A stretch of DNA of 31,378 bases, taken from positions 1-31,378 of IMG/VR virus record IMGVR_UViG_3300019768_000014; one strand, 5' to 3'. The position numbers and the translations under genes were made by a program. The first letter of the stretch is position 1. Each line of letters opens with the position of its first letter. This stretch comes from a virus. This document shows positions 2,863 to 29,817 of this stretch, in pieces. The notes under the pieces were generated by a model. The model was not told the DNA's origin, searched no databases, and worked only from the letters and a program-made list of their open reading frames with translations.

Positions 2863-2999
2863 TAGTGCTTATCCTTGTTCTTTTCTAGAAAATATATGAG
2901 CATCTTTAGTTCAAATATTCTCTTGGCGCTATCTGTATTATCTAATAGATAGCGCCAGTAAGTAACACTATACGCTCTTATTTTTGGTTTATTTCGCAC
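2862..2999 (-). CDS. Hypothetical 45-residue protein, GTG start
   Basis: An open frame beginning MRNKPKIRAYSVTYW and ending EKNKDKH, with protein-like composition. The GTG start overlaps the end of the upstream zinc-ribbon gene by 11 bases. An 11-bp perfect hairpin at DNA level (TGGCGCTATCT 2924-2934 with 2947-2957) lies inside it, so the region could instead be a structured untranslated end of the leftward operon. No family recognised. Confidence 0.4.
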   Translation of the reverse strand: MRNKPKIRAYSVTYWRYLLDNTDSAKRIFELKMLIYFLEKNKDKH

Positions 3000-3159
3000 T
3001 AGGACTCTTACCTACTGTATTATCAAAATATCTAGGCGCTGATAACGTTCTCAGCGCCATCTTTCCACACTCACACTTATGGTTAACCTGCTTATCACTA
3101 GCAAATATTTCATATTGCCTATGACAATGGCCGCATTTAAAGTTACGCAGTTTTTTCAT
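2989..3159 (-). CDS. Small zinc-ribbon protein
   Basis: A 56-residue protein (MKKLRNFKCGHCHRQYEI...) with a CxxC pair at residues 9-12 and a CxC pair about 20 residues later, followed by a basic, Ser/Pro-containing tail. This is the layout of FmdB-type small zinc ribbons often found in phages as regulators of unknown target. Its ATG overlaps the TAA of the upstream membrane-protein gene (TAATG). It belongs to the leftward island between portal and scaffold. Confidence 0.65.
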   Translation of the reverse strand: MKKLRNFKCGHCHRQYEIFASDKQVNHKCECGKMALRTLSAPRYFDNTVGKSPSAK

Positions 3160-3383
3160 TAGCTAAATCCTCTATCAAACAAATAAAACATAACCAAAAA
3201 AATAAAAGCTGATGTATAAAAACACTTTGCCCCTCTTATAACTAGGTCTATGTAACTAGCTTTATAATAAGCCTCTACTTCTCCTGCGTAACTAAAGATG
3301 GCGCCAGCAGGGCATATAATAAAAGTAAAAATCAAAAACGCTATAATCAAAAAAAGCCAAGCGTATACATTTAAATCACTCAT
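3159..3383 (-). CDS. Small membrane protein of unknown function
   Basis: A 74-residue protein with two hydrophobic stretches: residues 8-30 (WLFLIIAFLIFTFIICPAG) and 56-70. A polar segment with several charged residues lies between them. No recognised family. It overlaps its neighbours on both sides (8 bases upstream, TAATG downstream), so it is translated as part of a compact leftward operon. A role at the host membrane, such as exclusion, is possible but is inference from topology only. Confidence 0.6.
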   Translation of the reverse strand: MSDLNVYAWLFLIIAFLIFTFIICPAGAIFSYAGEVEAYYKASYIDLVIRGAKCFYTSAFIFLVMFYLFDRGFS

Positions 3384-3543
3384 TACTAATAATCTCCTTT
3401 AACTTTTCCTCGCTAGCACCAGCCTTTACAGCAGCGACAACAAATTCATTTAATATTTGCATGCAGTCTGATTTAAGGACAAATATCTCTTTGTGTAGCT
3501 CAGGGTTACGGTTTATGTCTCTTAGTTTGAATTGTTTAATCAT
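3376..3543 (-). CDS. Hypothetical 55-residue protein
   Basis: It begins MIKQFKLRDINRNPELHKE and is mostly predicted helix with evenly spread charges. Its ATG overlaps the TGA of the GIY-YIG-like gene (ATGA at 3540-3543), and its own stop lies 8 bases inside the next gene. The overlaps and protein-like composition support it being real. No family recognised. Confidence 0.6.
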   Translation of the reverse strand: MIKQFKLRDINRNPELHKEIFVLKSDCMQILNEFVVAAVKAGASEEKLKEIISNE

Positions 3544-3965
3544 TCTTCTATACTCCTAATAAACTCAAAAAACTTATCCTCCAGCCCTTTTTTAGCCCAT
3601 AAATGGTAATATTTATCATTTAATTTGATGCTAAAATCTGGCCTTTGAGTGTCGTAATATTCTTTTGGGTTAATGCCAGCATCAAGCAGGCACTTCTCAA
3701 TCTCATTAACTCTTGATGTCCTTAAAGCAAAATCAAGCGCTGGCATTGATTTATTTAGTTTTGGCTTGTGCTTGGCTATCTGCTTAAATTCCTCCAAATC
3801 AAGATCGCCTTCATGTTCATAAATCTCTACAGAGTCATAACTCTTACATTTTTCAGAACTATGAGTGAAAATTCTTTGTATTATGCTTCTGGATTGGCCA
3901 ACATAAACAATCTTTCCGGATTTAATAAGAAAGTATATGTGTTGCTTGTTTAGGTTAATCCTCAT
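3540..3965 (-). CDS. GIY-YIG-like endonuclease domain protein
   Basis: A 141-residue protein. The N-terminus carries the spaced elements of a GIY-YIG nuclease fold: IYFLI at residues 10-14, VYVGQS at 20-25 and Arg31 in the following helix. The first motif is degenerate (IYF instead of GIY), and the distal catalytic Glu could be E39 or one of the acidic residues near 50. Such genes in phages are often homing endonucleases or excluded-phage nucleases. Here it sits on the strand opposite to the structural operon, between portal and scaffold, as a mobile gene might. The C-terminal half has no recognised domain. Confidence 0.55.
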   Translation of the reverse strand: MRINLNKQHIYFLIKSGKIVYVGQSRSIIQRIFTHSSEKCKSYDSVEIYEHEGDLDLEEFKQIAKHKPKLNKSMPALDFALRTSRVNEIEKCLLDAGINPKEYYDTQRPDFSIKLNDKYYHLWAKKGLEDKFFEFIRSIEE

Positions 3966-4164
3966 TTTTATTTTTATCCTTTAGTCCGTTACACATACAA
4001 ACCAGTTGGGCTTTTTCGCTTGGGTTTTTGGATCGACCACCAAGAACCCTTCTGCATCTTCTTCTGAAGTTACTATACTCAATACCCCAAAACAAACACG
4101 CACCTTTAACTGTCCAACCTCTATCTTTTATCGCTTTAGTTATAACATCACTCATAAACACCAT
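3955..4164 (-). CDS. Small putative DNA-binding protein at head of the leftward island
   Basis: A 69-residue protein, or 66 if it starts at the internal ATG at 4155 (MSDVITKAIKDRGWTVKG). The segment from about residue 15 to 36 reads like a helix-turn-helix followed by a basic patch (NFRRRCRR), so it may be the island's regulator. No good ribosome binding site precedes either start. It is the first gene after the divergent promoter/dyad at 4171-4216 and overlaps the next gene by 11 bases. HTH assignment is by eye. Confidence 0.5.
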   Translation of the reverse strand: MVFMSDVITKAIKDRGWTVKGACLFWGIEYSNFRRRCRRVLGGRSKNPSEKAQLVCMCNGLKDKNKNED

Positions 4165-10071: not shown

Positions 10072-10327
10072 GGTTCAAGAAATAAGCTTTGATCGCCCAG
10101 TTGTTGAAAATGATGGGGCATTAACATTACAAAGCAGAACGGCTTTCCGCCAAGTTTTTGACAGGTTGCTCATTATAGGGAGCGGAAGCCCAGAGGGTGT
10201 AGTAGAGGCTAATCAAGGCGCTAGTTATATGGATGAGGACGCAGCGATAGGTAGTATATTTTACCTAAAACAAAAAGACGCTGACGGATTAGGCAATAGA
10301 GCAAATGAGTGGAAGTTAATCGGATGA
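10061..10327 (+). CDS. Small virion-associated protein with fibre-head-like motif
   Basis: An 88-residue protein starting at GTG 10061, which has AAAAGGTGG upstream (an in-frame GTG at 10052 is the alternative). The C-terminal half, SPEGVVEANQGASYMDEDAA then GSIFYLKQK and EWKLIG, follows a motif common in phage fibre and head-decoration proteins: a P-G-V-A turn, then Y-x-D, and a closing W. It occupies the place of the P22 tail-needle region but is far too short to be gp26. Stop overlaps the next ATG (ATGA). Confidence 0.6.
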   Translation: MAIKVQEISFDRPVVENDGALTLQSRTAFRQVFDRLLIIGSGSPEGVVEANQGASYMDEDAAIGSIFYLKQKDADGLGNRANEWKLIG

Positions 10328-10764
10328 TAGAGAGAATATACGACAAGGATAAAATTAGACCTATCGTGCTATCAATGATTGATGACGTTATTGAGGACGG
10401 CACATCTCACGAATGTTTTGAACTTGATGTAGAACGCGACTGCTGGCTTTCTTGTGATAATTATAAAGCCCTATTTCATGTAAAAGCATTTAACAGAACT
10501 ACGTTAGATTTGCACTGTTATATACCTACAGAAAACAGAAACAAAAGCCTTGAGTATGGATTTATGGCGATCAGGTGGATAAAAGAAAGCGCCCCTGAAA
10601 TGTATAAAAAAATAATTACTCAGGTTCCATCTATCTATAGACACGTAAAAATTTACGTCAAAAAACTAGGTTTCGAACTAGAAGGTAAATATACAGGCGC
10701 TTTCTTAAAGAACGATGAATTATGGGATTTAAACTTATTTGGGTTAAAACGGTGTGACATATGA
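10324..10764 (+). CDS. P22 gp14-like head assembly protein (DUF2824/GNAT-like)
   Basis: A 146-residue protein beginning MIERIYDKDKIRPIVLSM. Composition and the central segment ENRNKSLEYGFMAIRWIKE suggest a GNAT-type alpha/beta fold, as in the DUF2824 family to which P22 gp14 belongs. It lies directly before the ejection-protein genes, where P22 places gene 14, a minor assembly protein. Overlaps on both sides are ATGA. Assignment rests on place, size and fold impression. Confidence 0.55.
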   Translation: MIERIYDKDKIRPIVLSMIDDVIEDGTSHECFELDVERDCWLSCDNYKALFHVKAFNRTTLDLHCYIPTENRNKSLEYGFMAIRWIKESAPEMYKKIITQVPSIYRHVKIYVKKLGFELEGKYTGAFLKNDELWDLNLFGLKRCDI

Positions 10765-11261
10765 GTATTATTAAAGATACGTTCTTTGGTGGAGCAGAAA
10801 AGAAAGCAGCCAAAGCACAACAAGCAGGAATAGAAAAAGGCATACAGGCTACTCAGCAATCGACTGAGCAGGCTAGAAATGACCTTTTTAAGCTATACCC
10901 AGCAGCTCAACAAAACTTACAACAAGGCTTTCAGGGTGCTTTAGATGTATTTGGGCAGTCACTACCAGCACAAACACAGGTATTTCAACAAGGCAATGTA
11001 GGAGCGCAACAGCAATTATTAGCTGGATTACCTCAAATACAAAACGCTTTATTAGGTGGCGCTATTGATTACAGCCAATTCCAGCCTGTCTCACTACAGC
11101 CAGACATTAGTTTTGCGCAGCAGCAACTACCTGAATTTGTGAACCCGTACCAACCACAGCCACAAAATCAAACGGTTACCGCCAACCCGAAATTTGCTGA
11201 CTTATTACGCGGTGGTGGTAACGCTGATTTTTTTAATATGAACAGAATGAGAGGCTTTTAG
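10761..11261 (+). CDS. DNA ejection (pilot) protein, gp7-like
   Basis: A 166-residue protein opening MSIIKDTFFGGAEKKAAKAQ, a helical, Ala/Gln-rich start typical of gp7-type injected proteins, followed by repeats rich in Gln and Leu and a Pro/Gln tail. Ejection proteins leave the head before DNA and help it cross the cell envelope. It is the first of four consecutive genes occupying the places of P22 genes 7, 20 and 16. Confidence 0.6.
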   Translation: MSIIKDTFFGGAEKKAAKAQQAGIEKGIQATQQSTEQARNDLFKLYPAAQQNLQQGFQGALDVFGQSLPAQTQVFQQGNVGAQQQLLAGLPQIQNALLGGAIDYSQFQPVSLQPDISFAQQQLPEFVNPYQPQPQNQTVTANPKFADLLRGGGNADFFNMNRMRGF

Positions 11262-12819: not shown

Positions 12820-13920
12820 ATGCCAGCTTCAACGATAGGTAAAAACATATTGAGCGGTTTAGCATTCGCAGATGAGCGAGAGAGAAATAAATTAGCTAGA
12901 CAGCAGCAATTCTTACAGCTTGATGACCAAAGAAAGAGCGCTCTTTTTCAGGACGCAAGAACAGTTAACTCTTTTATTAAATCTGGTCAGCCAGAGCAAG
13001 CGCTTAATGTATTGTCTAACAGAATGAATATTTTAGAGCAAATAGGTGGAGACTCTTCTGACACAAGAGAAATTGCTGATTTCATTGCAAGAGGCGACAT
13101 ACAAGGCGCTGCTAATTTATTAGATAGCGTTGAGCTTGCTGGCGTTCAAAGTGGGTTTTTGCAGTCAACAGAGCCTAGTGAGTTATCACAAATAAACCTA
13201 GAGAAGGCAAGAATAGAGCTTGACAGGTTAAGAGATGGAAATTCAACAAAAGGAAGCAAGCAGTTCGAGAAGCAGGCGCAGTTTGAGCAACTTCAAGAAC
13301 TAAAAAGAAGCGGAACACCAGAGCAGATAAAAGAATACAGAGCTTTAATAGGTCTTGATAAGCCAGTTAAGCTATCAGGAACATCAGAAAAAGCATTAAA
13401 CACATCGCAAGAGAAAGCGTTTTCAGCGGAACAAGCTGTAAATAAAATGGAGTTACTTGCTAGAGACATAAGCAAGACAGATATAGGCGGAGGTGTTAAG
13501 GCTGGATGGAGTGAAACACTTAAGAATCTATTAGGATCACAAGACGAGGTTTCAAACTTAAGGCGTGAGTTTAGATCTATTCGCTCTAGTCAGGCTGTAA
13601 GAAACTTACCTCCTGGCGTTGCCTCAGATAAAGATATCGCATTAGCTCTTTCTGGCTTTCCTAGAGAGGACGCACCAGCATCAGAAATAATTAGCTTTTT
13701 AAATGGGCAGGCCAAGTTAGCAAAAATTGAAGCAGCCTTTAATAATTTCAAATCTGATTATATCTCAACAACAAAGGGGATTTCTGGATTTGGAAAGGCA
13801 TGGAGAGACCAATTAAAGAACAAGGACTATTTAAGCGACATGGTGACTATTGAGCAGGCACAAGCAACGCCACAGCAAAGCGGCACAATCGGCAGATTTA
13901 AAATAGAGGTTAAGGAATAA
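12820..13920 (+). CDS. DNA ejection protein (gp20-like)
   Basis: A 366-residue protein with a charged, mostly helical sequence; MPASTIGKNILSGLAFADER at the start is typical of phage injection proteins. Two helical repeats around 25-110 (SGQPEQALNVLSNR, RGDIQGAANLL) resemble TPR-like elements. It overlaps the next gene by TAATG. A good ribosome binding site (GGGGAA) precedes the ATG. Function inferred from place in the ejection block. Confidence 0.6.
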   Translation: MPASTIGKNILSGLAFADERERNKLARQQQFLQLDDQRKSALFQDARTVNSFIKSGQPEQALNVLSNRMNILEQIGGDSSDTREIADFIARGDIQGAANLLDSVELAGVQSGFLQSTEPSELSQINLEKARIELDRLRDGNSTKGSKQFEKQAQFEQLQELKRSGTPEQIKEYRALIGLDKPVKLSGTSEKALNTSQEKAFSAEQAVNKMELLARDISKTDIGGGVKAGWSETLKNLLGSQDEVSNLRREFRSIRSSQAVRNLPPGVASDKDIALALSGFPREDAPASEIISFLNGQAKLAKIEAAFNNFKSDYISTTKGISGFGKAWRDQLKNKDYLSDMVTIEQAQATPQQSGTIGRFKIEVKE

Positions 13921-19604: not shown

Positions 19605-19722
19605 TTCTCGCTTTCCCCGATATAAATCATGCCAATCTGCAAAACACATATAAACCAGTGATTTATCTACACTGGTCTAATGTGTGAAATAAGGAAATAT
19701 TCCTCTGATTGCAGTGTTATGT
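19602..19722 (-). repeat. Array-end module, copy 1 (diverged inverted copy at 29696-29817)
   Basis: Read leftward from an R''-like ACATAAC (19716-19722), it contains ACTGCAATCAGAGGAATA, a hairpin ACCAGTG/CACTGGT followed by TTTATAT, then ATTGGCATGATT, a purine-rich ribosome binding site and an ATGAAG start. The copy at 29696-29817 has the same elements in the same order and spacing with other bases in between. The hairpin may be a terminator. It closes the cassette array and precedes an unrelated gene in each copy. Confidence 0.7.
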
Positions 19723-19902
19723 GTTTAGTTTCCATTCGTGATTTGGATCAGGAACAAAGGCCATAGCTACACGCCAATCCCACCCCTCACCACCACTAGA
19801 GAAGCCATTTTCTTCATGGTGTACGCTTTCATAAGTTTTTACTAGCCAACCGCCAAATACTTTTGCTCTCTGATGATTGTCATCAATATCTTCAAATTCC
19901 AT
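19717..19902 (-). CDS. Cassette gene, 61 residues, unknown function
   Basis: MEFEDIDDNHQRAKVFGGW at the start, then a Gly/Glu/Trp-rich middle (SSGGEGWDWRVAMAFVPD). The start at 19902 has GGAGAGA 3 bases upstream; the GTG at 19914 in the same frame does not. The TAA lies inside the R''-like box that opens the array-end module. No family recognised; small, acidic, soluble proteins are usual in integron cassettes. Confidence 0.65.
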   Translation of the reverse strand: MEFEDIDDNHQRAKVFGGWLVKTYESVHHEENGFSSGGEGWDWRVAMAFVPDPNHEWKLNT

Positions 19903-19928
19903 AAGTCTCTCCACATTTCAGTTAAAAC

Positions 19929-19976
19929 ACATAACAACCGCAACCACGGGATAAACCCGTGTTGCCAAGGTTAGCA
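19929..19976 (-). other. attC-like cassette site (type e, 48 bp)
   Basis: Read leftward: R'' TGCTAAC (19970-19976), L'' GCAAC, inner stem ACGGG/CCCGT, L' GGTTGC and R' GTTATGT (19929-19935). GCAACACGGG pairs with CCCGTGGTTGC leaving a single unpaired G, the extrahelical base that sets strand choice in attC. R and L boxes are separated by the unpaired spacer typical of attC. Confidence 0.75.
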
Positions 19977-19980
19977 GGAA

Positions 19981-20280
19981 TTAATACCCACCTATCTCAG
20001 TCCACTTATCATAATGTAAAGCATATACATCAATATCATAATGATGACTAACATCTTCAAATAGCGTTTGTAATTTAACTAACATTTCCTGTGCTTCTCT
20101 AATCGAGCTAAGTGCATCGTTGTAGTTTTCGTGGTTAATGTGATCTACCGCATTATTTAGTACCTGCATGGCTCGGCATTCCATTAATTCACCGCTAACA
20201 ACAGGCTCAATCGGACTTGCTATAGTTGGTTTTTCTGTTAAATCTATGGTGTTTGCAAATTCTTCTATATTCATTTTCAT
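19981..20280 (-). CDS. Cassette gene, 99 residues, start inside an attC loop
   Basis: The first 28 residues (MKMNIEEFANTIDLTEKP, then TIASPIEPVV) are encoded inside the attC at 20193-20326. The frame runs through its R' box into the cassette proper. The body (from about M33, MECRAMQVLNNAVDHINHEN) is helical and ends with KWTEIGGY. A weak GGTGA precedes M33, so the native cassette start may be there, and the strong GGAG before 20280 may be supplied by the attC. Function unknown. Confidence 0.6.
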   Translation of the reverse strand: MKMNIEEFANTIDLTEKPTIASPIEPVVSGELMECRAMQVLNNAVDHINHENYNDALSSIREAQEMLVKLQTLFEDVSHHYDIDVYALHYDKWTEIGGY

Positions 20281-20326
20281 ATCTCCGTGTTATTTATCCG
20301 CAAGCGCGGTTAGCCAAAGGTTATAT
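20193..20326 (-). other. attC-like cassette site with coding loop (type b, copy 1)
   Basis: R'' ATATAAC (20320-20326), CTTT spacer, L'' GGCTAA, arm CCGCGCTTGC, an 80-90-base loop, arm GCAAGTCCGA, L' TTGAGCC with an extra G, R' GTTAGCG (20193-20199). The loop holds GGAG, an ATG and the first codons of the following gene. Arms nearly identical to those at 21148-21278 and 29044-29175; the loop here is different. Confidence 0.75.
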
Positions 20327-20341
20327 GGCTTAACCCTGCGA

Positions 20342-20497
20342 CTATTCCATATCACTCATTACATTTTTGTCATCATCTTCATTGCAGCAGCTTTCGCACC
20401 AATGCCCACTACCCATTTCCCACAAGTACTCCCCGTCTTCTGGTGTTTTTCCGCAAATTTCGCATTCTAAAATTCTTTGTGTCACTCTGTGTCCCAT
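20342..20497 (-). CDS. Cassette gene, 51-residue zinc-site protein
   Basis: MGHRVTQRILECEICGKTPE, then a second Cys cluster (HWCESCC) and an acidic tail. CxxC and CxxCC suggest a small zinc ribbon. GGAGAGA precedes the ATG by 6 bases. It lies between two attC-like sites. Function unknown. Confidence 0.65.
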   Translation of the reverse strand: MGHRVTQRILECEICGKTPEDGEYLWEMGSGHWCESCCNEDDDKNVMSDME

Positions 20498-20528
20498 TTG
20501 TATCTCTCCAGTTAATTTTTAGTGCGCC

Positions 20529-20584
20529 ATATAACAAGGCGCTTAAATTTGATTCGTACCTCACAACTTAGCGCGAGGTTAGAA
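20529..20584 (-). other. attC-like cassette site (type c, copy 1, 56 bp)
   Basis: R'' TTCTAAC (20578-20584), L'' GCGCTAA, a middle with GAGGTACGAATC, L' TTTAAGCGC, R' GTTATAT (20529-20535). GCGCT/AGCGC pair with an extrahelical T. The same middle (GAGGTACGAGTC) is in the rightward site at 29431-29489. Confidence 0.75.
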
Positions 20585-20591
20585 TGGCTAA

Positions 20592-20774
20592 TTATACTTG
20601 TGGCTTTAATATCATAATTTTTACACTTTTTAATTTAAAAAACGGATTTCCGTACCCATTTCTTTGCGAGAAAAGTAATGGCCTGTTATTTATGTTTAAG
20701 CCATAACCAAAAACCCGAAACCAAAACCCACAATAATTCCCATCATTCCACTTCATATAACTAAAAACTTTCAT
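20592..20774 (-). CDS. Cassette gene, 60 residues, FWFRVFGYGL family
   Basis: The core GFWFRVFGYGLNINN then PLLFSQRNGYG is a pattern I recognise from many small phage and cassette proteins of unknown function. The start is at 20774 with AAGGTAG upstream; M7 is an alternative. The C-terminus is basic. Flanked by attC-like sites on both sides. Confidence 0.65.
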   Translation of the reverse strand: MKVFSYMKWNDGNYCGFWFRVFGYGLNINNRPLLFSQRNGYGNPFFKLKSVKIMILKPQV

Positions 20775-20803
20775 TTTAATTCTACCTTTTGTGTTAACGC
20801 CAA

Positions 20804-20890
20804 TTCTAACAACTTACACCAAACGACAAAAACAGCTTGCCGCTCATTCTTCACTAACGCTTTATTTTGCGTCTGTGCTTTTGGTTATGT
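20804..20890 (-). other. attC-like cassette site (type d, 87 bp)
   Basis: R'' ACATAAC (20884-20890) contains the stop codon of the preceding gene. R' is GTTAGAA (20804-20810). Between them GCACAGACGCAAAA partly pairs with TTTTTGTCGTTTGGTGT. The L boxes pair less well than in the other sites, so it may be decayed. Confidence 0.55.
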
Positions 20891-21205
20891 TGCATCCTGT
20901 GCCGCGTCATCAATTAGCTTTGGATCATCAATTAACAGCCAACACATCAGAATTGTATTGAACACGTCAGAATCAAGAATACCAAACGGCTCGTCTGTAT
21001 TATTGCAGACTATAGCTGTCTCAGATTTATTATCTTGATTTCGCATTATTGTAAAAGGCCAGTCAGGATGTGAAACGCCAACAACATTTTTATCTTTGTC
21101 TACTATGTAATCAACGCTAAACTTTCCTTGTTCCATATAGTCCTGCAACATAACAACAGGCTCAATCGGACTTGCTACAGTTGGTTGTTTTTCATCATTT
21201 TGCAT
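20885..21205 (-). CDS. Cassette gene, 106 residues, start inside an attC loop
   Basis: Residues 1-18 (MQNDEKQPTVASPIEPVV) are encoded in the attC at 21148-21278, and the frame crosses the R' box. The body, from MLQDYMEQGKFSVDYIVD on, is acidic with Trp and Phe clusters (HPDWPFTIMR). CAGGA before the ATG of M23 could be the native start. The TAA lies in the R'' box of the next attC. The same 18-residue leader recurs at 29118 before a different gene. No family recognised. Confidence 0.6.
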   Translation of the reverse strand: MQNDEKQPTVASPIEPVVMLQDYMEQGKFSVDYIVDKDKNVVGVSHPDWPFTIMRNQDNKSETAIVCNNTDEPFGILDSDVFNTILMCWLLIDDPKLIDDAAQDAT

Positions 21206-21278
21206 CTTCGTTATCCTTATTTATTCGTTGTAATACTTGCGCTACTATGTAGCAAGCGCGGTTAGCCAAAGGTTATGT
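21148..21278 (-). other. attC-like cassette site with coding loop (type b, copy 2)
   Basis: R'' ACATAAC (21272-21278), CTTT, L'' GGCTAA, CCGCGCTTGC, a loop with AAGGATAACGAAG and ATG, GCAAGTCCGA, TTGAGCC, R' GTTATGT (21148-21154). It is nearly identical, over about 115 bp and inverted, to 29044-29175, loop included. Confidence 0.8.
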
Positions 21279-21445
21279 GTCTTTAGTGTCTTGGTATTTA
21301 TTTAATTCACTAAAAAGGCTTTCAGGTATTTCCTCCCAAAACGTACCATTCCAATTTTCAATTCCCAATAAAATTTATCATTTTCAGCCCTCACAGCTAA
21401 ACCACCATAATAATTACCTATTTCACCCACATCTCTTACTTTCAT
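21273..21445 (-). pseudogene. Frameshifted cassette gene (GNYYGGLAVRAENDKFYWE family)
   Basis: It starts at 21445 with GGAGAAT upstream. In frame it gives MKVRDVGEIGNYYGGLAVRA, then YWELKIGMV and an early stop at 21302. The next frame continues naturally: ENWNGTFWEEIPESLFSELN, then KYQDTKDT, and its TAA falls exactly in the R'' box (21273-21275), as in the other cassettes. One missing base near 21360 (GGGAATTG) explains this. The restored protein would have about 57 residues. It could be a real mutation or a sequencing/assembly error. Confidence 0.65.
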
Positions 21446-21475
21446 TTTTATTCTCCAGTTATCAATTAAGTCGTC

Positions 21476-21533
21476 ACATAACAACGCACTCAATCGGACT
21501 GCGCAAGCTTGCCGCTTAGCGCAAAGGTTATGA
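21476..21533 (-). other. attC-like cassette site (type a, copy 1, 58 bp)
   Basis: R'' TCATAAC (21527-21533), CTTT, L'' GCGCTAA, GCGGCAAGCTTGC, AGTCCGA, L' TTGAGTGC, GTT, R' GTTATGT (21476-21482). GCGCT pairs with AGTGC with one G:T pair, leaving an unpaired G in L'. The same plan is seen at 28783-28842. Confidence 0.8.
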
Positions 21534-21662
21534 TGCTAAGCTAAGTTCATCACTTTCGCTTTTTAATACCATACATTTTCCGAATGGCTCCAACTCAACT
21601 ATTGTTTTATAGCCAAGCAAAACAAAGTAAGCTTTTCTGTATGCTCTAATTCTAGGCTTCAT
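21528..21662 (-). CDS. Cassette gene, 44 residues, unknown function
   Basis: MKPRIRAYRKAYFVLLGYKT through SDELSLAS. Its TAA (21528-21530) lies in the R'' box of the following attC. AAAGGG precedes the ATG. It is the first gene of the leftward array, preceded by an R'-like half-site at 21689-21695. No family recognised. Confidence 0.6.
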   Translation of the reverse strand: MKPRIRAYRKAYFVLLGYKTIVELEPFGKCMVLKSESDELSLAS

Positions 21663-21688
21663 TTCATTAACCCTTTATTGTGTAGGTA

Positions 21689-21695
21689 ACATAAC
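21689..21695 (-). other. R'-like half-site at the 5' edge of the leftward array
   Basis: GTTATGT read leftward, preceded by GGTT as in complete sites. No matching R''/L'' arm is visible in the AT-rich 70 bases before it, so this may mark the original insertion edge. Just upstream, 21755-21772 is a near-perfect AT palindrome overlapping the previous stop codon. Confidence 0.4.
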
Positions 21696-21767
21696 AACCA
21701 AAATAACTAGGTAAATACTACGCTCTAAATTCACAAAATACAATAATAAATTACATTAATTTTTAAA

Positions 21768-28542: not shown

Positions 28543-28605
28543 ATTTCTCCATGCACAAGGAAGTGCGTCCTATATTGATTTGTTACGAGGCGTATTGGAG
28601 GAATA

Positions 28606-28788
28606 ATGAGTAAAAATAAAAAGTGGATAGGTTTAAGTGTTAACGAATCTTACGTGAAAGAGATTGAAAATGAAAACGAATCATTAAAAGAGAAATTAAG
28701 ACTTGCTGACTTGCTTATAAATAAAATTGATAGTAAAGAGTTCAAGCAAATGATTGGTACGTATAGGTTATTAACTAAAGACGCATAA
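28606..28788 (+). CDS. Cassette gene, 60 residues, coiled coil
   Basis: MSKNKKWIGLSVNESYVKEI then a charged coiled coil (ENENESLKEKLRLADLLINK). TGGAGGA precedes the ATG. The TAA lies in the R'' box of the attC-like site at 28783. First gene of the rightward array. No family recognised. Confidence 0.65.
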   Translation: MSKNKKWIGLSVNESYVKEIENENESLKEKLRLADLLINKIDSKEFKQMIGTYRLLTKDA

Positions 28789-28842
28789 CCTTTGCGCTAT
28801 GCGGCTAAGCGTAGCGTGTCCGACATAAGTGCGTTGTTATGT
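28783..28842 (+). other. attC-like cassette site (type a, copy 2, 60 bp)
   Basis: R'' GCATAAC (28783-28789), CTTT, L'' GCGCTAT, GCGGCTAAGCGTAGCG, TGTCCGAC, L' ATAAGTGC, GTT, R' GTTATGT (28836-28842). GCGCTAT pairs with ATAAGTGC, leaving one unpaired A and one G:T. It is read rightward, the direction of the genes. Confidence 0.8.
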
Positions 28843-28866
28843 TGCGCACTAGAAAGGAGAAAGAGA

Positions 28867-29049
28867 TTGAAATATATAAAAGCAATAGACGAAAAGCCAC
28901 GCACAGGTGTGGACGTTTACGTTGTGACGGATACAGGTAAAAAAGGCATAGCTAAATTTTGGGATTTAACGCAGCAATGGCTTACTGCTGATAGTGACCT
29001 AAAGCCTGATGATATTATTGTAAAATGGAAGTACGCAGAAGCAACATAA
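28867..29049 (+). CDS. Cassette gene, 60 residues, DUF551-like
   Basis: TTG start at 28867, 7 bases after AAGGAG. KYIKAIDEKPRTGVDVYVVT then GIAKFWDLTQQWL and a closing W-K pattern resemble the small DUF551 domain (W-x-P-x-x-G-x-x-V-L-V-Y then A-x-F-x-x-W), a family common in phages and cassettes, function unknown. The TAA lies in the next R'' box. Confidence 0.6.
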   Translation: MKYIKAIDEKPRTGVDVYVVTDTGKKGIAKFWDLTQQWLTADSDLKPDDIIVKWKYAEAT

Positions 29050-29175
29050 CCTTTAGGCTAACCGCGCTTGCGCATTATGAGCGCAAATATTACAACGAAT
29101 AAATAAGGATAACGAAGATGCAAAATGATGAAAAACAACCAACTGTAGCAAGTCCGATTGAGCCAGTTGTTAGTT
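29044..29175 (+). other. attC-like cassette site with coding loop (type b, copy 3)
   Basis: R'' ACATAAC (29044-29050), CTTT, L'' AGGCTAA, CCGCGCTTGC, loop with AAGGATAACGAAG and ATG (29118), GCAAGTCCGA, TTGAGCC, R' GTTAGTT (29169-29175). Nearly identical to 21148-21278 on the other strand. Confidence 0.8.
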
Positions 29176-29201
29176 GGATTTTACGGAGGAATTATGATTA
29201 A
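29118..29201 (+). CDS. Leader peptide started inside the attC loop
   Basis: MQNDEKQPTVASPIEPVV followed by 9 more residues and a stop. Its first 18 residues are the same as those of the cassette gene at 20885-21205. Here the frame is not continued by the cassette; instead its stop overlaps the start of the next gene (29194), so it may act by translational coupling. Confidence 0.45.
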   Translation: MQNDEKQPTVASPIEPVVSWILRRNYD

Positions 29202-29436
29202 TAAAATTTTAGAGTTTTTTTGGTTTAACAAAAAGCCGCCCGAAAAGGTGAGGCTTTTAATTAGAAATAACGAGATTATTTTGGCTTATATACCAAAAGA
29301 GATCGCAACAGATCATTTTAAGATGTACTGCATGCAACAGCAAATAGCCTGTTATAAAATAACAATAAATAAAGCTACAAATAATAACGGACTTGGTGCT
29401 TTGGGTGGACTACAGCCTTGGTTGTTATCCAACTAA
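29194..29436 (+). CDS. Cassette gene, 80 residues, unknown function
   Basis: Starts at ATG 29194 after CGGAGGA. MINKILEFFWFNKKPPEKVR then RNNEIILAYIPKEIATDHF and MYCMQQQIACYKITINKA. Alpha/beta pattern, slightly basic, a Gly/Leu-rich end. The TAA lies in the R'' box at 29431. No family recognised. Confidence 0.65.
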   Translation: MINKILEFFWFNKKPPEKVRLLIRNNEIILAYIPKEIATDHFKMYCMQQQIACYKITINKATNNNGLGALGGLQPWLLSN

Positions 29437-29489
29437 CCACGCAAATAACCTGCGAGGTACGAGTCAGGGCTTAATTTGTATTGTTATAT
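29431..29489 (+). other. attC-like cassette site (type c, copy 2, 59 bp)
   Basis: R'' AACTAAC (29431-29437), L'' CAAATAA, a middle with GAGGTACGAGTC, L' TTAATTTG, R' GTTATAT (29483-29489). CAAAT pairs with ATTTG with an extrahelical T. The middle matches 20529-20584. Confidence 0.75.
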
Positions 29490-29503
29490 TTTAGGGTGTA
29501 ATT

Positions 29504-29701
29504 ATGAACAGAAAAATACCAAAAATGTACATGGCCAGAGGTGATAAAAACGAGGTGATGGCGGTTATCAATGGGATTAAATTAAACGGCGAGCCTATGG
29601 TCGTTGGTAGAAAATACCCGCTTATAAACGGAAATGTATACTCAGGCTTTGTTAATTTTGATGAAGATATTAGAGTTTTTGAAGACGGTGAAGAAATATA
29701 A
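29504..29701 (+). CDS. Cassette gene, 65 residues, unknown function
   Basis: MNRKIPKMYMARGDKNEVMA through VFEDGEEI; predicted beta-rich, resembling a small SH3-like barrel (VGRKYPLINGNVYSGFVNFD). AGGGTG precedes the ATG. The TAA lies in the R''-like ATATAAC that opens the array-end module. No family recognised. Confidence 0.65.
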   Translation: MNRKIPKMYMARGDKNEVMAVINGIKLNGEPMVVGRKYPLINGNVYSGFVNFDEDIRVFEDGEEI

Positions 29702-29817
29702 CACTGTAATCAGAGGAATATTTCTCACTTTCTACAAAACCAATAAAGCAATAAGACATTGGTTTTTATAATAAACTACAAATTGGCATGATTCTCCAGT
29801 GGAAAGAGGGAAATATG
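29696..29817 (+). repeat. Array-end module, copy 2
   Basis: R''-like ATATAAC (29696-29702), ACTGTAATCAGAGGAATA, a hairpin ACCAAT/ATTGGT followed by TTTTTAT (terminator-like), then ATTGGCATGATT and a purine-rich ribosome binding site before ATGAAG. Same plan as 19602-19722 on the other strand, with diverged bases between the conserved parts. Confidence 0.7.

Follow-up and report, generated by a model that had tools for sequence, protein, structure and literature searches.

The window analysed here comes from a marine phage and is the whole virus record IMGVR_UViG_3300019768_000014, 31,378 nt in length. Its head genes are P22-like and, judged by the portal protein, Pseudoalteromonas virus vB_PspP-H6/1 is the closest isolate (48%). 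Two divergent gene blocks adjoin near 24.92 kb. Array 1 (21662-19717) continues the leftward block, which encodes an MTase and NinB; array 2 (28606-29701) continues the rightward block, where genes for an Erf-like annealing protein and then an SSB-like protein come first. Erf-like, NinB and NinG homologues are all encoded in the window. Elsewhere, small leftward genes are clustered at 2989-4164 within the rightward head gene operon, one of them GIY-YIG nuclease-like by eye, and in phage H6/1 a leftward cluster occupies the same place.

An earlier note on this DNA described seven leftward genes with six attC-like imperfect palindromes at 19717-21695. Array 1 indeed consists of these seven genes (19717-21662) and six sites, and a scorer trained on bacterial attC ranks the sites high. 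A second array at 28606-29701, overlooked in the note, has four genes and three sites and is inverted relative to array 1. A stretch of 120 bases is common to the two arrays at 93% identity (S5 versus S9, inverted), and the promoter-proximal ends of both hold half attC sites only. The note also reported no integron integrase, and a PF00589 search of the window, in a record that may be incomplete, likewise found none. The arrays (6 + 3 sites) therefore lack the intI in cis of a complete integron and belong to the CALINs, that is, at least two close attC with no integron integrase. The features of array 1 are as follows (positions in the window; strand).

19625-19722, + (attC polarity): attI-like module, with R box GTTATGT at 19716-19722, conserved core at 19694-19722 and hairpin at 19654-19676; inverted repeat (I3) with 29698-29724
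19717-19914, -: last cassette gene of array 1; its stop TAA is the antisense of TTA in the attI-like box
19929-19976, + polarity, gene strand -: attC-like site S1, the most stable fold
19981-20280, -: cassette gene starting within S2, leader MKMNIEEFANTIDLTEKPTIASPIEPVV
20193-20326, +: attC-like site S2, leader type (bacterial-attC scorer)
20342-20497, -: cassette gene, zinc-ribbon-like on reading of the sequence, 51 aa
20529-20584, +: attC-like site S3 (bacterial-attC scorer)
20592-20774, -: cassette gene, 60 aa
20804-20890, +: attC-like site S4, weakest polarity call (bacterial-attC scorer)
20885-21205, -: cassette gene starting within S5, leader MQNDEKQPTVASPIEPVV
21148-21278, +: attC-like site S5, leader type; holds a CRISPR protospacer at 21151-21182 with 5'-CC
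21302-21445, -: cassette gene, probably frame-shifted relative to its homologue in Vibrio phage jenny 12G5
21476-21533, +: attC-like site S6, with arms near-identical in phage contig G202
21528-21662, -: first cassette gene of array 1, 44 aa, stop codon within the R box
21689-21715, +: half attC, R''-side arm only (D10 repeat), at the promoter-proximal end of array 1

Array 2 is arranged in the opposite direction.

28563-28587, -: possible half attC, R''-side arm, at the promoter-proximal end of array 2 (sequence reading)
28606-28788, +: cassette gene 1, stop within the R box
28783-28842, -: attC-like site S8 (bacterial-attC scorer)
28867-29049, +: cassette gene 2, TTG start
29044-29175, -: attC-like site S9, leader type, 93% identical to S5, inverted
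29118-29201, +: leader ORF MQNDEKQPTVASPIEPVVSWILRRNYD, overlapping the next start codon (sequence reading) and possibly coupled in translation to the next gene
29194-29436, +: cassette gene 3, stop within the R box
29431-29489, -: attC-like site S10 (bacterial-attC scorer)
29504-29701, +: cassette gene 4, stop within the attI-like box
29696-29790, - (attC polarity): attI-like module, with R box GTTATAT and hairpin at 29738-29764

Against Pfam and PHROG the window cassette genes gave no confident family, and the zinc-ribbon-like gene no match at all. Gene 29504-29701 weakly resembles Imm70, at an E value of 0.0014 that falls short of the curated cut-off. With blastn against a phage collection, the only cassette-gene homologue of array 1 was the one in jenny 12G5, the other matches being marginal. 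The jenny 12G5 protein aligns over two frames of 21302-21445, the second of which would end in the R-box TAA, and the frame shift may reflect either a true lesion or faulty assembly.

Sites of the attC kind serve bacteria in exchanging antibiotic-resistance genes. The window sites were compared with 33 bacterial attC, 13 of them from plasmid mobile integrons and 20 from the neighbourhood of chromosomal IntI genes in bacteria of the same order as the CRISPR host described below. The scorer aligns the arms of all TAAC...GTTA pairs with these references, and it gave the correct strand for 33/33 known attC when their own locus was left out. In the 31 kb window, scored on both strands with bacteria-only references, the array 1 sites are six of the top eight scores on the + strand and the array 2 sites are the top three on the - strand. 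The nine sites score 50.5-60.3; the best scores of 20 random windows were about 48-55.5, with 55.5 the single highest, and the sites at 19929, 20193 and 20804 are unexceptional singly. Since the random-window bests match some single sites, the weight rests on the clustering in two short arrays. The R''/R' boxes TAAC...GTTA and the paired L arms are like those of known attC, and this comparison with independent bacterial sites bears out the integron-cassette anatomy that had been proposed. As for single-strand folding against shuffles, S1 (19929-19976) has z = -4 and the other sites -2.0 to +0.9, and S5 adopts the expected attC shape with ordinary energy. Rfam gave no match at gathering thresholds over the whole window. 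Early heuristics for attC that demanded rigid L-box pairing or relied on fold energy failed to recover known sites and were abandoned. The phage attC may be active in recombination.

Viral contigs scanned for pieces of the site yielded eight further phage contigs with arrays. The earlier note had pointed to related phages as the place to look for the same sites; the repeats are present there, and still resemble bacterial attC. Read as attC, the array 1 sites lie on the + strand and those of array 2 on the - strand, in both cases opposite to the genes. With bacteria-only references, all of the 50 sites in ten arrays on nine phage contigs are antisense to the genes, some by small margins. The references with which the arrays and the site list were first found included window sites in this polarity; the bacteria-only polarity call alone is therefore unbiased. 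In a canonical cassette, the gene lies in the same direction as the attC polarity, from Pc at attI; none of the 50 is so arranged. Between the attC of bacterial chromosomal integrons, 55 cassettes are sense and 6 antisense by the longest-ORF rule. By the same scorer, the attC sites of the published control phage TJE1 are sense, as expected, and the three sites found in phage H101 (NC_029094, 76529-77987) are antisense to the annotated genes. H101 is PH101 of Qi et al., with the same accession; there the PH101 and TJE1 arrays are called typical (Qi et al., 2023, PMC9892861), and two tested attC of PH101, not necessarily the three scored here, recombined with attI1 under IntI1 (PMC9892861).

After the last cassette of each array lies (C/T)ATAACACTGYAATCAGAGGAATATTTC and then a hairpin. 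The same end module occurs in seven array ends of six phages, namely the two window arrays and five other phages. In attC polarity it reads GTG^TTATRT and stands where attI should lie, and the G^TTAT box is precisely where its conservation sets in. Averaged over pairs, identity is 0.94 in the searched 9-mer, 0.54 in the 20 bases that follow and 0.31 towards the cassette, with a null maximum of 0.357. In a complete integron attI adjoins the first cassette; the conserved module stands at the right place for this, yet shows no detectable similarity to host attI regions (no better than shuffles). The statement of the earlier note that no attI is visible is therefore probably wrong for both arrays, and the module would play the attI role as an insertion site. 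Its hairpin varies in sequence among copies with pairing kept in most, which fits a terminator; a search of the modules for terminator and promoter consensus found neither. In a viral scan the exact module 17-mer had eight matches, all unrelated, and a degenerate scan gave ten new contigs, which were rejected as chance matches in one coding family or in unrelated genes with no attC nearby.

The sites are also coding. The TAA of the box TAAC closes a frame of at least 40 codons in 31/50 sites, against 0/100 for the other two frames, and box TAA closes the last gene in 7/7 modules. In 14 of the 50 sites, a Shine-Dalgarno-like motif and a start codon lie in the attC loop, with the frame running through the R'' arm into the gene; when the frame is moved by one base or by two, 1 and 2 such sites remain. 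Two kinds of leader recur before different proteins: TVASPIEPVV with its relative VSNPVEAVV, and MKNNKLLIVLLSVLLVSLSGC, by sequence a lipoprotein signal peptide. Near-identical leader attC are likewise found before different genes. Across phages, homologous genes agree in their 5' attC but not in the one at the 3' side (0.75 vs 0.43; 0.69 vs 0.35), a comparison of few pairs, with leader-type sites where attC forms part of the gene; this is expected if the unit is a gene plus its 5' attC. One case is gene 20885-21205, whose homologue in phage contig G209 comes with the leader (83% identity). Recombination sites that act as coding segments, contributing a stop, a start region or a signal peptide, would offer ready-made N-termini joinable to new genes, which may be what the attC-encoded leaders do.

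Other phages have the same cassettes and the same end module. Among the cargo of these relatives are an N6/N4 methyltransferase, a DUF3850/ASCH protein and, with a leader attC, a Lar-like anti-restriction protein. On contig 3300019768_000037, a promoter-like segment with the palindrome TTAGCGCTAA occurs twice (10280-10380 and 13155-13255), as does a short ORF (11061-11200 and 13462-13600), each time flanked by different attC, which suggests that cassettes have been duplicated and rearranged. The arm AGTCCGATTGAG...GTTGTTA was absent from 84,980 bacterial and archaeal genomes except for a CRISPR spacer and one chance match. Two loci, L026 and L028, were set aside as chance pattern matches. The idea that the array was captured from a host chromosomal integron is unsupported as stated, with the genes antisense and the arm absent from the bacterial and archaeal genomes scanned; cassettes and module shared among phages point to a phage cassette pool rather than recent capture.

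The spacer is in a type I-F CRISPR of a Colwellia genome (MAAE01000029) and is identical to window 21151-21182 in S5, where the target is flanked by 5'-CC, the protospacer motif of type I-F systems. The same spacer meets two further window sites at one mismatch; it matches three places because its target is a repeated attC. None of the other 75 spacers of this genome matches the window at six or fewer mismatches. The genome has at least 76 type I-F spacers, one of which matches this phage group well. It also carries an uninterrupted intI and a host-type attC. The match suggests that the phage host is Colwellia or a relative, and a CRISPR spacer against attC means that hosts encounter these elements.

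The reading preferred here, at a probability of roughly 60%, is that the window holds two integrase-less integron-type arrays in which the host IntI shuffles reversed cassettes at the attI-like modules. Each array would form the 3' end of one of the two divergent operons. A cassette would be one compact gene in reverse: in attC polarity it would begin with TT(A), the stop of the gene, continue with the gene backwards and end with attC over the gene's 5' end, and in about 1/4 of cassettes the attC loop would hold the ribosome site, the start codon and the first 16-30 codons. The conserved array-end module might serve as an attI-like insertion site, where a host integron integrase, provided in trans and acting on folded single-stranded attC during infection, would insert and shuffle cassettes. 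Transcription would enter from the phage operon, at the array end opposite the module, so only reversed genes would be expressed. In this way phages might maintain their own pool of reversed cassettes. This reading is favoured by the bacteria-only scoring, the 50/50 antisense sites, the module, the box stops, the leaders and the 5' attC linkage, by H101, which is antisense and among phages with IntI1-active attC (PMC9892861), and by a Colwellia with intact intI that carries a spacer against S5. On the other hand, it is weakened by folds that are mostly no better than shuffles, by array starts with half attC only, by a module unlike host attI and lacking terminator consensus, and by the absence of this attC type from the bacterial genomes scanned.

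A rather unlikely alternative is that the repeats are derived from attC or attC-like but no longer moved by an integrase, and that the arrays change by homologous or RecET/Erf-type recombination. The window without integrase and the weak single-strand folds agree with this, the phage encodes Erf-like, NinB and NinG homologues, and homology would allow exchange between near-identical leader attC that stand before different genes. Homology would not explain why junctions fall at the G^TT box with the cassette side unrelated in sequence, nor does it suit arrays in which most sites have little sequence in common, and H101, with the same reversed polarity, is among the phages with IntI1-active attC (PMC9892861). 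It is less probable still that the sites are convergent intergenic hairpins of phages, with a stop-codon box (TAAC) and a translation start region, and attC in looks only. Translational selection alone could shape part of an element whose box is a stop codon and whose loop is a start region, and the elements are found in phages only; the arms at 50/50 sites nevertheless agree with bacterial attC in both sequence and polarity, and translation needs neither complementary R/L arms nor a module beginning at G^TTAT. The polarity might also be misassigned, with sense cassettes, crossover at the gene-upstream box and leaders given in trans by the preceding cassette, as the same leader attC precedes different genes. 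This is very improbable, because bacterial references give the other polarity at 50/50 sites, homologous genes retain their leader attC across phages and the conserved module is at the opposite end; leaders donated in trans were rejected on polarity and gene linkage.

If host IntI does shuffle these cassettes, reversed phage arrays with their own end site would show phages using host integrases to stock anti-host genes, and the Lar-type anti-restriction and DNA methyltransferase cassettes in relatives fit such stocking. On the accepted view, the polarity of integrons ensures that captured genes are expressed from the attI side (PMC2727003), and such a reversed pool would not be expressible by bacteria. 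Some attC encode N-termini, among them a lipoprotein signal peptide, and this would allow a direct test of whether genes are built by site-specific recombination. The wider proposal, that marine phages run a mirror-image integron with their own attI sites ending early operons, a private reversed pool, borrowed host integrases and coding recombination sites, is tentative and has somewhat less than an even chance. An incomplete literature search found no earlier report of the consistent reversal, the conserved end module, coding leaders in attC or CRISPR spacers against attC.

Phage CALINs and phage attC usable as IntI1 substrates are already published, so the array itself is of a known kind (Qi et al., 2023, PMC9892861). 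Like CALINs, including those phage examples (PMC9892861), the present arrays have at least two attC-like sites within 3 kb, single-gene cassettes and no integrase, and they lie in phage genomes. Unlike them, every array here is antisense, with an end module at the attI position, coding leaders in attC and a box stop codon, and two inverted arrays lie within one genome. The sedentary chromosomal integrons of Alteromonadales relatives share the arms TAACAA..GC..CAA..GGAC and TTAG..GTTA and the order of attI then cassettes; in these host integrons, however, the cassettes are mostly sense (55:6) and the attC are longer and fold better than phage attC. Among 395 genomes of that order the phage attC type was found only as a CRISPR spacer. 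In the ORF-11 leader of attI1 and in fused class 1 cassettes (on which see PMC4670013), the recombination region supplies translation initiation or N-terminal codons. The phage sites are similar in that they supply initiation or N-terminal codons to the cassette gene. While the leader of attI1 ORF-11 or fused cassettes lies in attI or comes from loss of attC, an intact attC repeatedly carries the leader in the phages, within the cassette.
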